DNA of 64,000 bases from Sphagnum magellanicum (taxonomy: Eukaryota; Streptophyta; Sphagnopsida; Sphagnales; Sphagnaceae), in assembly GCA_021904315.1 (NCBI GenBank), contig CM038910.1:24004256-24068255 (forward strand), read 5' to 3'. Within the stretch, counting starts at the first letter, position 1, and each line of letters starts with the position of its first letter. Positions 50,780 to 63,905 of this stretch are shown one piece after another. The translations under genes and the position numbers were made by a program. The notes beneath the pieces were generated by a model. That model had not been told where the DNA came from. It made no database searches and saw nothing but the letters and a program-made list of their open reading frames with translations.

Positions 50780-52233
50780 TTACTCAACAATAGCTTGCCT
50801 ATTGGGTTCAAATACATACTTGATCAAGGATTCCTTGATTGGTAAGACCTCAGGGAACTCCCCCTGCAGCTTTGATGCATCAAGTTCGTTGTTGCTCCAA
50901 GGTGCAATGATGACCTTTGCTTGCTCTTCTAGGGTGAAATTCTTCCATGAAAATCCTAGTTTGATATATTGTCGATACATCTCCAAAATCTCATTGTGGC
51001 TCACCACTCCTGGATTGGTGAAATTCCAAATCCCCCGCAAGTTACGTTTTGCCATTTCAATTGAGATAGGCAACAATTCATCCAAGATTGTCATGTTGTT
51101 AAGGGTGTTCACCATCTTCTGATACCGAGAGATCTTTGTAATAAAATTCCGGGGGTTCTACAGATCTGAAGTGATGGGCATCCACATGCGTAAGGTGCAC
51201 ACATTGTCAAACTCTTTAAGAAACTCTTCAACATGCCTAGTATATAAACAAAAATCAGATTTCCACATTTTGGACATGTAGTTTTCCACAAGAGCAAGAC
51301 ATTGAATAGCCCAGGAAATGCCCAAACAATTGACCAACTAACATGTGGACAGTGGACACCTACACTAGACCTAAGTTTTTCAAAGAAAGATAGGGGTTGA
51401 GCTCTCAGCATGTAAATCTCCTACAATTGTACTAAAGCAAAACAGATATGGAACACATTCACTCCTTCCCACAAAAACAAAATGTTAGATGCAAATAGCT
51501 ATCAAGGTTCACATCTCACAGTACACAGTTTAAGCACTCACCATGGCCTTTGTCTTGGAATATTATGAACCAACAAAATTTGGTGTGTCGTCTTCCTTGA
51601 AACCAATTCCACTACCAAGCTGGTGATTTTTGTCTTACTCAAAAATGCACCCTGTTCAAAATTGATGAGTAGCAAGTTGCTTTGCTTGTAAACATTTGCC
51701 AAAGTGAGAGTACCCACAATGTTTGCCCAGATGGTCTCAACCTTGTGGCTTTCACACTAGTCCACATTTGGCCAACCTATCACACCTACTGCATTGAATA
51801 CATGAGAGGGTTTTGCAGATGCTATATCTGCCTCCAATTGTGCCCGATTCTCCAACCGGCCAAATCCATACTCATAGAATATCCCTTGCTTCTGGCATAT
51901 CTTTCCAAGAAGATCACCAATCCAGCCAATGCGTCCATAGATCAGAAATTTCAATCGCTGTTTTGAACTGCCATTCTCTTGAGCATTTAGTGTGGCATTC
52001 CCAGTCTTGTGGCTGCTATCATTCAGAGATGCATGCTCATTTGGTGTGTTGGAAGTTTCAACCTCAACTTTAACTTCAAGGCCTTTCTGAAAATCAGCCA
52101 ATTTCTCAATCCCAGATATGGACATTATATGAGGATGGGGAACTAGTGCTCCAGAAACATCCCCCCACCAGTTAAAGTGGTTGGTGTACCATTGCAATGT
52201 CTTCCACAAGCCCTCTTCCCATGTGGTGCGCTC
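50780..52233 (-). pseudogene. RHM: UDP-rhamnose synthase (RHM), C-terminal half, broken
   Basis: RHM makes UDP-rhamnose for pectin and flavonoid glycosides: an N-terminal 4,6-dehydratase is fused to a C-terminal 3,5-epimerase/4-ketoreductase. Here an exon begins after acceptor GATGGCAG at 52,233 with ERTTWEEGLWKTLQWYT and WWGDVSGALVPHPH (dehydratase end). The reductase start LIYGRIGWIGDLLGK follows, with its GxxGxxG-type nucleotide site. Stops occur at 51,757-51,759 (normally Trp), 51,636-51,638 and 51,563-51,565, and a frameshift lies near 51.65 kb. The exon ends KTKAM|GTGAGT at 51,542. The second exon (about 51,233-50,780) has TAG at 51,158-51,160 and a frame change, then a clean conserved end (TILDELLPISIEMAKRNLRG, WNFTNPGVVSHNEILEMY, YVFEPN). 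The first roughly 300 residues are absent. Confidence 0.9.
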
Positions 52234-52640
52234 CTGCCATCAAGCACAAAGTGACATATCCCCAAATAAAAGCACACATTAGGAACCAAACATGAAAACA
52301 CATGTTATTGTCCCCCTTAACAACCATAACTAGACAATATGCAAACCCTTGAAAGGGTTACAAGTGGTGGTATATTCATAATGTCGGTCAAATATATACC
52401 TAAAAACACGTTACTTGCAAGTGGCAGATTCCATTGTTTCAGCCATAACAAACACAAATGGACAGAAAGAAAGAACACCATTATGTGAGAAGTTAGAGTG
52501 TCTTAGAACAAAATGTCGCTTTTGAACAACACCATCACCATACATCTTACCCAAAGAATATCTTAGAATGTGAAGCTCTATCTGAACCCCAACTTCACTC
52601 AATACATAATTTCTTGCTCATAAATGTTATTACAACCAAC
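52234..52640. other. No exon recognised upstream of RHM piece
   Basis: The preceding RHM exon should lie here or beyond on the minus strand, but nothing resembling the dehydratase catalytic region is present up to the E2 exon. Confidence 0.45.
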
Positions 52641-52650
52641 TACAAAATGT

Positions 52651-52794
52651 TTAACCCATGGCATACTTCTGGCTCCAATTCCGTGTTGTGGCTTCATATT
52701 TGGCCATGTCAGTCTTGTACATATGAATGATTTCGGGTACAAGTGGATTGTTAGGATTAGGGTCAATCAACAATGAACATATTGAGAGCAAGAC
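52651..52794 (-). pseudogene. UBC: UBC8-type E2 enzyme, last exon
   Basis: After acceptor GGGGCAG| (52,795) the frame reads [20 protein letters not shown] and [17 protein letters not shown] and ends QKYAMG-TAA at 52,651. It has 47 codons plus stop and is fully open. This is exactly the last exon of plant UBC8/UBC10-group ubiquitin-conjugating enzymes, with a conserved C-terminus and exon boundary. Taken alone it is intact. The preceding exon in the family carries the catalytic Cys and HPN motif, and I could not find it anywhere on this strand up to the other E2 exon at 63.8 kb. It is therefore a fragment, or else part of a gene with a very large, heavily invaded intron and a lost exon. Confidence 0.88.
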
Positions 52795-52989
52795 CTGCCC
52801 CACATATCAAGACTTGTTAATTTCCACATCTCAAACATCAAAACCAAGCAAAACTTTAAAGGTCTAGGTCAGTAAAAAAAAATAGGATTAGAATACAAGG
52901 TTCAAGGTTAAGCACAAAGTTTATACCAAATTTGCATGCTAAGTGGTAAGAGAAAAGTATTTCAGAAATATGCACTTGAACTGAAATGT

Positions 52990-53101
52990 GTCGACTAACC
53001 AACACAAATCCAGAACTGGGCTTTCCAAACACATTAGAGAGCCCATAAGGAACATGAAGTCCAGTATTCCTGTTGATCCATCCAAATTCCAACAATCCCA
53101 T
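52990..53101 (-). other. Exon-like open stretch, unassigned
   Basis: The minus strand reads MGLLEFGWINRNTGLHVPYG and SNVFGKPSSGFVL before losing protein character. It looks protein-like, but I cannot assign it. It lies on the same strand as the surrounding gene fragments. I considered the missing E2 exon 3 and a distal TBC segment in a shifted frame; neither fit was convincing. Confidence 0.2.
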
Positions 53102-53109
53102 AAAAAAAT

Positions 53110-62220: not shown

Positions 62221-62224
62221 GAAA

Positions 62225-62377
62225 AAATCCATTAGTCACAAGTTAGTCATAGAGTAGTTGCAAGCAAGACCAAATGCAACAAGTAGTTGTAGATATAACC
62301 AATAATAGTTACAAATGTCAAATAGTCGCAACTAGTCGCGAATTGGTTAGTTACAAAAACCCAATTTTCTTCTAGTG
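62225..62377. mobile_element. CACTA-like element end, degraded
   Basis: Ends ...CCCAATTTTCTTCTAGTG, whose reverse complement is CACTAGAAGAAAATTGGG, a CACTA-type terminus. Inside are AAATAGTCGCAACTAGTCGCG and TAGTTGCAAGCAAGAC phrases like those of the 54.75 kb MITE family. The opposite terminus was not found. Confidence 0.4.
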
Positions 62378-62569
62378 TTCAACCTCAAACCTGATACAAT
62401 TTCCCCTAGCACCTACCCACTCTCATAATGTTATGACTGCATTCATTGTCATGTTGCCTTCAAACTGATTGTTGTGGGAAATTCTCTGTAATTTCATAGA
62501 TATGTGGTAAGGTCAGATCCTTTCCATATGTTTTGGACATGTGGTTCATTGTACCCATTGACTAAACAC

Positions 62570-62640
62570 TGAGAAGAGTATGTACAGACATTTTCCATCT
62601 CTAGATTACAGGACAAAACTTATGGGGCATGGAGAGGTAG
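62570..62640 (+). repeat. 78-bp tandem unit, copy 1 (split by solo LTR)
   Basis: GAAGAGTATGTACAGACATTTTCCATCTCTAGATTACAGGACAAA (given here in outline) to CATGGAGAGGTAG precedes the solo LTR. Matching units follow at 63,659-63,735 and 63,736-63,805 (GAAGAGTATTAA-AGACATTTCC, CATGGAGGGGTAGTTTGG). The LTR inserted into an existing tandem array. Confidence 0.75.
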
Positions 62641-63646
62641 TGACGCACTCCCAACTCCTCAAGGGACTCAAATGTGAGCCCAAGTAAAAAGCAGCGGAGT
62701 AAGGAGGAGTCGGAGCACGCTCCCTAGCTCACAACCCTTTGAGGGGTAGAGGGGCGGGTTGGAGCTTCGGGATGGGACTAGGAAGAGTTAACAAGCTTTA
62801 GTCACTCACACGGGCCTGCACACAACCCACACAAAGTGGTTAGTGCAAAGTTAGAGCACACTTGGTGTTAGGACGAGCCACGGGCAACACGGACACACAA
62901 GACTCACCACGGCCCGGACTTGGGGGAAGCCACCACCTTCCCCCTTATAGTATACTCTGCAGCTCTCCACGGAGGTTACATCCAAATGGCTATTTTTCCC
63001 GGGACTCCCGAGTGGGAGTCCCGAAATCGCGCCAAATGGGACTCTCGGGACTTTGGAGCCCCATAATTTTTTGAGCAGACCTCGGATCGCGATGCAGTCT
63101 AAAGCAAAGTTATAGATCTCGTCGAGACCTTTCCAACGGTATGTCGCACGTTCTCTACAGCCAAGTATTTTGGGTCGATTCCCGACTTTTAGTCGTCGGG
63201 AGTCAAAACTGGCAGACTTCCGGGAATTCGACTCCCGACCCTTCTTTTGGCCATAACTTGTGTTTCAGATGTCCAAATGAGCAATGCGAGCCCATTTTAG
63301 ATATCTACGCTTCAATAGCTTTCCAATGATATAAAGAACGCCACAATCCATTGAGGTTTGACCCCTGCAATCGCTCTCTGAAGTTTTGGGAGTCCACCGG
63401 GACTCCATCTCCCAAATTGGGAGTTTGCCTTGGGAGTGTGAGGGTTCACTCCCTCACACTTTCTAACACTTTCTCACACTCCCTAGCACTTTCTTGCACT
63501 CCCGGGAATATGTGATGTGACTCCCGGGCTTCCTTTTGCCTTGACTCCCGGGCTTCCTCTTAGCTTAACTCCCGGGCTTCCCTTTTGGCCCGCACCCTTG
63601 TAATTCCCTTTGCCTTGGTCGCGAGCCCAAAGCTAGGGTTGCGACA
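62641..63646. mobile_element. Solo LTR, 1,006 bp, GC-rich (copy 2)
   Basis: Begins TGACGCACTCCC and ends GGGTTGCGACA like copy 1. It is flanked by GGTAG (62,636-62,640) and AGTAG (63,647-63,651), a 5-bp duplication with one change. It is longer than copy 1 because of an internal expansion of CTCCC, CACTTTCT and ACTCCCGGGCTTCC phrases at 63,400-63,590. No coding region. Confidence 0.85.
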
Positions 63647-63777
63647 AGTAGTTTAGGAGAAGAGTATTAACAGACATTTCCATCTGTAGATTAAAGGACA
63701 AACCTTATGAAGCATGGAGGGGTAGTTTGGGGGAAGAGTATTAATAGACATTTCCATCTCTAGATTGAAGGACAAAC

Positions 63778-63905
63778 CTTAGGGGGCTTGAAGGGGTAGT
63801 CTGGAGGAAAATGAATCATAACCAAAAATACACCTCCAGCATAGGGACTATCATGTGGACCCATGATTGTTGCTTGCCAATGGACCATATCTTCTGCCAC
63901 AAGAC
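63778..63905 (-). pseudogene. UBC: UBC8-type E2 enzyme, exon 2
   Basis: Between acceptor GTGTGACAG| and donor AAG|GTTTGT, a 128-base exon reads [36 protein letters not shown] and PFKPPK, which matches the second exon of plant UBC8/UBC10-group E2s in phase and length. It is fully open. The residue after EDM is Val where Phe is nearly invariant, and Met replaces a Thr after FLV. Exon 1 would lie beyond the window end. The next exon (HPN motif and catalytic Cys) is missing downstream; the last exon is 11 kb away at 52.65 kb on the same strand with CDT1 and TBC pieces in between. Confidence 0.88.

Follow-up and report, generated by a model that had tools for sequence, protein, structure and literature searches.

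How did what look like the remains of four unrelated genes come to lie on one strand within 13 kb of moss DNA? The question is raised by positions 50,780 to 63,905 of a 64,000-nucleotide stretch of the Sphagnum magellanicum genome (contig CM038910.1, positions 24,004,256 to 24,068,255 of the forward strand; hereafter the window). An original prediction placed pieces of RHM, a UBC-type E2, a TBC Rab GAP and CDT1 there and attributed them to capture by one mobile element, either a Helitron or a Pack-type element, or to a large transduplication. Our analysis points to a nested arrangement. A copy of a UBC8-type E2 gene, already a pseudogene or later to become one, would have received about 8.8 kb of inserted DNA in intron 2, and this insertion was most likely a non-autonomous CACTA transposon carrying genomic pieces, introns included, of CDT1 and TBC-like genes (a Pack-CACTA). 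A miniature inverted-repeat transposable element (MITE) and a solo long terminal repeat (LTR) would have landed inside the inserted element and a solo LTR of the same family in the remaining intron. We put the probability that 53,532-62,377 is one gene-carrying CACTA element in the intron of an E2 gene or pseudogene at roughly 0.55. The features are collected in Table 1.

The argument starts from the exon order of the UBC gene. Three of its exons certainly lie in the interval, one more than the two predicted at first, and the UBC assignment itself is upheld by the Pfam UQ_con model, which matched two minus-strand frames (E 1.5e-18 and 1.3e-06), and by matches to the structures 4x57 and 7xed. 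AG or GT is present as expected at all five exon borders in view, and across the junction of exons 2 and 3 the protein passes from PPK to VAFK with neither gap nor overlap; exon 1 would fall past the end of the window. In exon 3 the frame is broken, and SPTLTISK carries on in a different one. Between exon 4 and 4x57, 7 of 47 residues differ (our own count on the alignment) and, UBC-type E2 proteins being a highly conserved family, so many differences suggest that this copy is a pseudogene. It does not have the form of a processed (retroposed) pseudogene, for its introns are kept and bordered by AG and GT.

Since UBC exons 2 and 3 flank both the TBC-like and the CDT1-like pieces, these pieces sit inside UBC intron 2, and the flat cluster first described has to be given up. 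Read from low to high coordinates, the intron opens with 112 bp of its own sequence, followed by a candidate CACTA-like left end (53,532), the MITE and the TBC-like piece. Solo LTR 1 comes next, then the CDT1-like piece and, at 62,377, a CACTA-type right end; beyond this lies further intron with a tandem repeat, inside which solo LTR 2 is located. When 53,532-62,377 and LTR 2 are subtracted, 506 bp of intron 2 are left, and the next UBC intron measures 522 bp. Capture by a mobile element is still the best explanation for the TBC-like and CDT1-like pieces, but it does not take in UBC, which hosts the insertion, or RHM, which lies outside it. The gene remains are all on the minus strand, as had been said; however, common strand is weak evidence for capture, as four independent units agree by chance once in eight times and a fifth gene, at 6.4-7.5 kb, has the same strand.

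Table 1. Features of the gene-fragment region and its surroundings (positions in the window)
Feature	Position	Strand	Remarks
Further CACTA-type left end with subterminal motifs	49,234-49,460	plus	Faces the gene-fragment region
RHM pseudogene reduced to its C-terminal part; one intron at about 51,233-51,541	50,780-52,233	minus	4qqr matches
UBC exon 4, includes stop codon	52,651-52,794	minus	4x57 (E2 8) match, E 6.8e-24; border AG
UBC exon 3, frame break	53,317-53,419	minus	7xed match, E 5.2e-11; borders AG/GT
UBC intron 2, 10,358 bp, insertions inside	53,420-63,777	minus	
Candidate gene-carrying CACTA element	53,532-62,377		Right end CACTAGAAGAAAATTGGG at 62,377 (minus); worn left end at 53,532; flanks TTG/TTC
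CACTA-type MITE, complete, 152 bp	54,749-54,900		Duplication AAT/AAT
TBC-like piece (56,369-56,437 and 56,148-56,224)	56,148-56,437	minus	Presumed identity
Solo LTR 1	57,622-58,442		Duplication AAGGT/AAGGT
CDT1-like piece (exon ending near 60,848; pieces 60,387-60,092 and 59,966-59,079)	59,079-60,864	minus	PF08839 match below cut-off
Solo LTR 2, family of LTR 1	62,641-63,646		Duplication GGTAG/AGTAG
UBC8-type E2 pseudogene, exon 2	63,778-63,905	minus	7xed match, E 2.3e-22; borders CAG/GT

The right end at 62,377 has what we take to be the typical CACTA form. When its first 29 nt were compared with 53,418-62,340 for a left partner, the MITE scored 13, position 53,532 followed at 11.0 and the next site reached 8.5 (among the 15 sites listed). 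The score at 53,532 exceeds the best obtained in 53.4 kb of control sequence (10.5) and was reached by 16 of 2000 shuffled queries, an optimistic count given that the segment had been picked by eye beforehand. The 250-bp bin at 53,501 contains a strict CACTA-type subterminal motif three times, a density that 1 of 200 shuffles reaches anywhere in the window (shuffles for the motif, subterminal-alignment, Helitron and inverted-repeat tests were resampled from dinucleotide frequencies). The right-end bin is not among the bins listed for the strict motif; it holds four copies of a looser one, a level reached by 3 of 200 shuffles. With ten overlapping subterminal words, more than three matches were found only in the 500-bp bins at 49,000, 53,500, 54,500 and 62,000, which correspond to the two candidate ends, the MITE and the further left end at 49,234. 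Taken in this way, 53,532 and 62,377 would be the two ends of one element, and the gene pieces between them would have moved with it.

Several observations weigh against such an element. Its left candidate starts with CATAGG, not CACTA, and pairs with the right end only in a gapped alignment, and the 3-bp flanks agree at two of three bases. A strict ungapped search with the CACTA right end, allowing up to one mismatch in the 3-bp duplication, gave no pair. The reverse test, from 53,532, places 62,377 third, after 60,006 and 53,950 (among eight sites listed). The two subterminal stretches align at chance level, their score being reached by 14 of 500 shuffles and by 37 of 463 tiles of the window (from which those with starts in 53,251-53,949 and 61,801-62,399 had been removed), and the three copies of the looser motif in the left bin were equalled in 24 of 200 shuffles. 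Both the segment and the motifs were selected after inspection of the sequence, so the motif and shuffle counts are optimistic. No transposase domain was detected in the six frames of 50-64 kb or 44-50.8 kb at E ≤ 1. The contents of the proposed element are also uncertain: the CDT1-like pieces, which are in different frames, were chosen by eye and were joined by X, matched PF08839 with E 0.0046 and 17.6 bits, where the Pfam cut-off is 22.6, and the TBC-like pieces matched nothing in Pfam or PDB up to E 10.

Smaller CDT1-like pieces matched PF08839 with E 0.064 and 0.016, the open frame at 59,079-59,930 (284 aa) had no Pfam match, and a 57-aa piece had no PDB match at E ≤ 10. The CDT1 fragment of the original prediction is no more than probable. 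The TBC Rab GAP fragment found no support in the same libraries, and the resemblance of 56,148-56,437 to TBC proteins is presumed. This piece retains a GTAAGC donor (read by eye).

If the TBC-like and CDT1-like pieces had entered by filler DNA at a break or by segmental duplication, the CACTA-type ends would belong to unrelated small elements, for example one of 419 bp at 53,532-53,950. Such a route is possible but in our view less likely. It would fit the chance-level similarity of the two subterminal stretches, the presence of a complete MITE just 1.2 kb away and the pairing of the 53,532 end, which is better with 53,950 than with 62,377 (13.0 versus 11.0). However, 62,377 has no better nearby partner than 53,532 except the MITE, which has two ends and a duplication of its own, and the bracketed length gives back a normal intron size. 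An old group of neighbouring genes that decayed in place would explain the common strand, the retained introns and the additional minus-strand gene at 6.4-7.5 kb, but the CDT1-like and TBC-like pieces are partial and lie within a UBC intron, and we consider this origin very unlikely.

Two other accounts draw on elements that lie partly or wholly outside the inserted segment. The left end at 49,234 and its subterminal motifs face the region, and RHM is cut on its 5′ side, as would be expected if an outer CACTA element, with its right end past 64,000, had carried RHM and UBC fragments and the inner insertion were nested in it. However, the partner of 49,234 was not found within the window, its best match in 49,300-64,000 being the MITE's own end (among eight sites listed), and we give this arrangement a small chance. 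The chance is about as slight for capture in two tiers, in which the outer element brought fragments of RHM and UBC, and the UBC intron so captured then received an inner Pack-CACTA with the TBC-like and CDT1-like pieces. Two LTRs of the same family and orientation flank the CDT1-like piece and could be thought to delimit one LTR retroelement that transduced CDT1. This is scarcely credible: the two LTRs have a duplication each, the sequences on the outer sides of the pair mismatch (TCAAAGGT versus AGTAGTTT), LTR 2 interrupts a tandem repeat present on both sides, and no retroelement domain was found between the LTRs. An insertion of one gene-carrying CACTA element in the UBC intron is the reading that we prefer.

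The MITE and both solo LTRs are separate insertions, each with its own target duplication, and the insertions of these kinds in the original prediction are confirmed by these duplications. LTR 2 lies inside a roughly 70-bp repeat belonging to the UBC intron, the copies on the two sides of the LTR sharing 61 identities with 8 mismatches. The two LTRs are in like orientation and show 526 identities and 129 mismatches over their aligned part; because they have separate duplications and LTR 2 splits the tandem repeat, they do not form the ends of a single element, and an LTR element spanning both was rejected. A 31-nt stretch at 53,615-53,645 matches the subterminal part of the MITE (54,762-54,792) in inverted orientation with 84% identity (among the 25 listed of 68 inverted pairs). 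Because of this match, the CACTA families to which the MITE and the candidate left end at 53,532 belong may be related.

Helitrons and Pack-MULEs carry gene fragments with introns, and we looked for the ends of both. In 48-64 kb a scan for Helitron 3′ ends found one, against a mean of 0.025 per strand in shuffled sequence (40 shuffles for each strand). This end is located at minus 62,010, and such an element would extend to higher coordinates, away from the gene pieces; the two 5′-like matches are CACTA-type ends (49,234 and the MITE). No Helitron ends bracket the pieces, and the Helitron was rejected as the vector. The shape of a Helitron 3′ end can be seen at 62,003-62,056, where an imperfect palindrome is followed by CTGG on the minus strand. 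Around the block there were no bracketing inverted pairs of 60 bp with at least 40 identities, and one 15-bp inverted pair with a 5-bp duplication had counterparts in 4 of 15 shuffles, so that Pack-MULEs and other long inverted repeats with duplications were set aside as well. A single CACTA element from 49,234 to 62,377 was also rejected, because its border would separate UBC exon 2 from exon 3. What stands of the proposed Pack-type vector is that a CACTA-type right end and a weaker left-end candidate bracket the pieces.

RHM would be a separate 5′-truncated pseudogene adjoining UBC, outside the insertion. Its C-terminal part is certainly within the interval, as three minus-strand stretches match the solved 3,5-epimerase/4-reductase 4qqr: 50,780-51,157 (E 1.7e-60), 51,760-52,239 (E 7.3e-26) and 51,541-51,756 (E 3.6e-08). 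The span kept runs from approximately residue 3 of this relative to the C-terminus, with some 85 residues ahead of it. A stop lies between the stretches 51,760-52,239 and 51,541-51,756, at a place that a single residue occupies in the relative, and past residue 116 of the relative the frame is lost; the predicted partial and broken state of RHM is thereby borne out. An AG acceptor is present ahead of the upstream RHM exon, and the intron retains its GT donor, whereas the acceptor of this intron seems degraded (read by eye). Of the GT-AG-like borders ascribed to all of these introns, those of the UBC exons and the RHM and TBC-like donors are found, and the acceptor of the RHM intron departs from them. 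The N-terminal domain of RHM had no Pfam match in 50-64 kb, which is weak evidence of absence because even the RHM part known to be present was picked up only at E 0.26 in that scan. As for the absent 5′ exons, they may have been lost, or may lie past 64,000 if UBC itself occupies an RHM intron.

The window looks like plant nuclear DNA, given its copia-type domains and the UBC and RHM matches, which are closest to 4x57, 7xed and 4qqr; 4x57 and 4qqr are, we assume, Arabidopsis proteins. An integrase and related copia-type domains at 19.2-20.8 kb lie between 300-nt direct repeats, which begin at 17,221 and 22,998, are 96% alike and delimit a copia-type retroelement at 17,221-23,297. Of the fifth gene on the minus strand, at 6,456-7,522, two exons with matches to the ubiquitin-fold family PF13881 (E 7e-10 and 2.8e-16) are in view and look open; presumably it is a membrane-anchored ubiquitin-fold (MUB) gene. 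Five short repeat pairs, 81-88% alike, occur in the same order in 24,093-27,709 and 38,676-46,705, which are perhaps two diverged copies of one element. A short inverted pair seen by eye at 45,913-46,780 (GATTTTTTGGATGGTGCA / TGCACCATCCAAAAAATC) is perhaps another small element. Scans of the whole window gave no tRNA genes and no Rfam matches.

The layout of the locus resembles that of known gene-carrying CACTA elements, of which it would be a candidate member with a worn left end. Tgm-Express1, a CACTA element of 5.7 kb, occupies a site in intron 2 of the soybean F3H gene and consists of five unrelated gene fragments, which are spliced into chimeric transcripts (PMC1947982). It combines, as our candidate would, several unrelated host gene fragments, a position in intron 2 of a host gene and fragments that keep splice sites. 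However, Tgm-Express1 is a defined insertion with sequenced transcripts, whereas the candidate has a worn left end and a broken host gene and is known from DNA sequence alone. Pack-TYPE elements that combine pieces from several loci are likewise known, and the Pack-CACTA and other Pack-TYPE elements of Arabidopsis and maize are, as our candidate would be, non-autonomous terminal-inverted-repeat (TIR) elements with pieces of more than one locus; they were identified by intact TIRs together with target duplications and several copies, whereas the candidate has one degraded end and is known at a single locus (PMC8903248). The gene-carrying CACTA elements of Chenopodium would share with it subterminal repeats and captured gene fragments, but in the portion of that work cited here the fragments lie upstream of the element's coding domains, and no transposase domain was found in ours (PMC8978399). 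Neither Helitron nor Pack-MULE ends, by contrast, bracket the pieces here, as judged from 48-64 kb and the surroundings of the block.

The kind of event proposed is thus already known from soybean, Arabidopsis and maize. Since all the pieces are on the same strand and several splice sites survive, a transcript of four genes is conceivable: if capture in two tiers were true, one transcript could join exons of all four, as for Tgm-Express1. Reading the exon order turns an apparent four-gene capture into a set of nested events, and the value of the locus would lie mainly in being a worked example of this, together with one candidate gene-carrying CACTA element.

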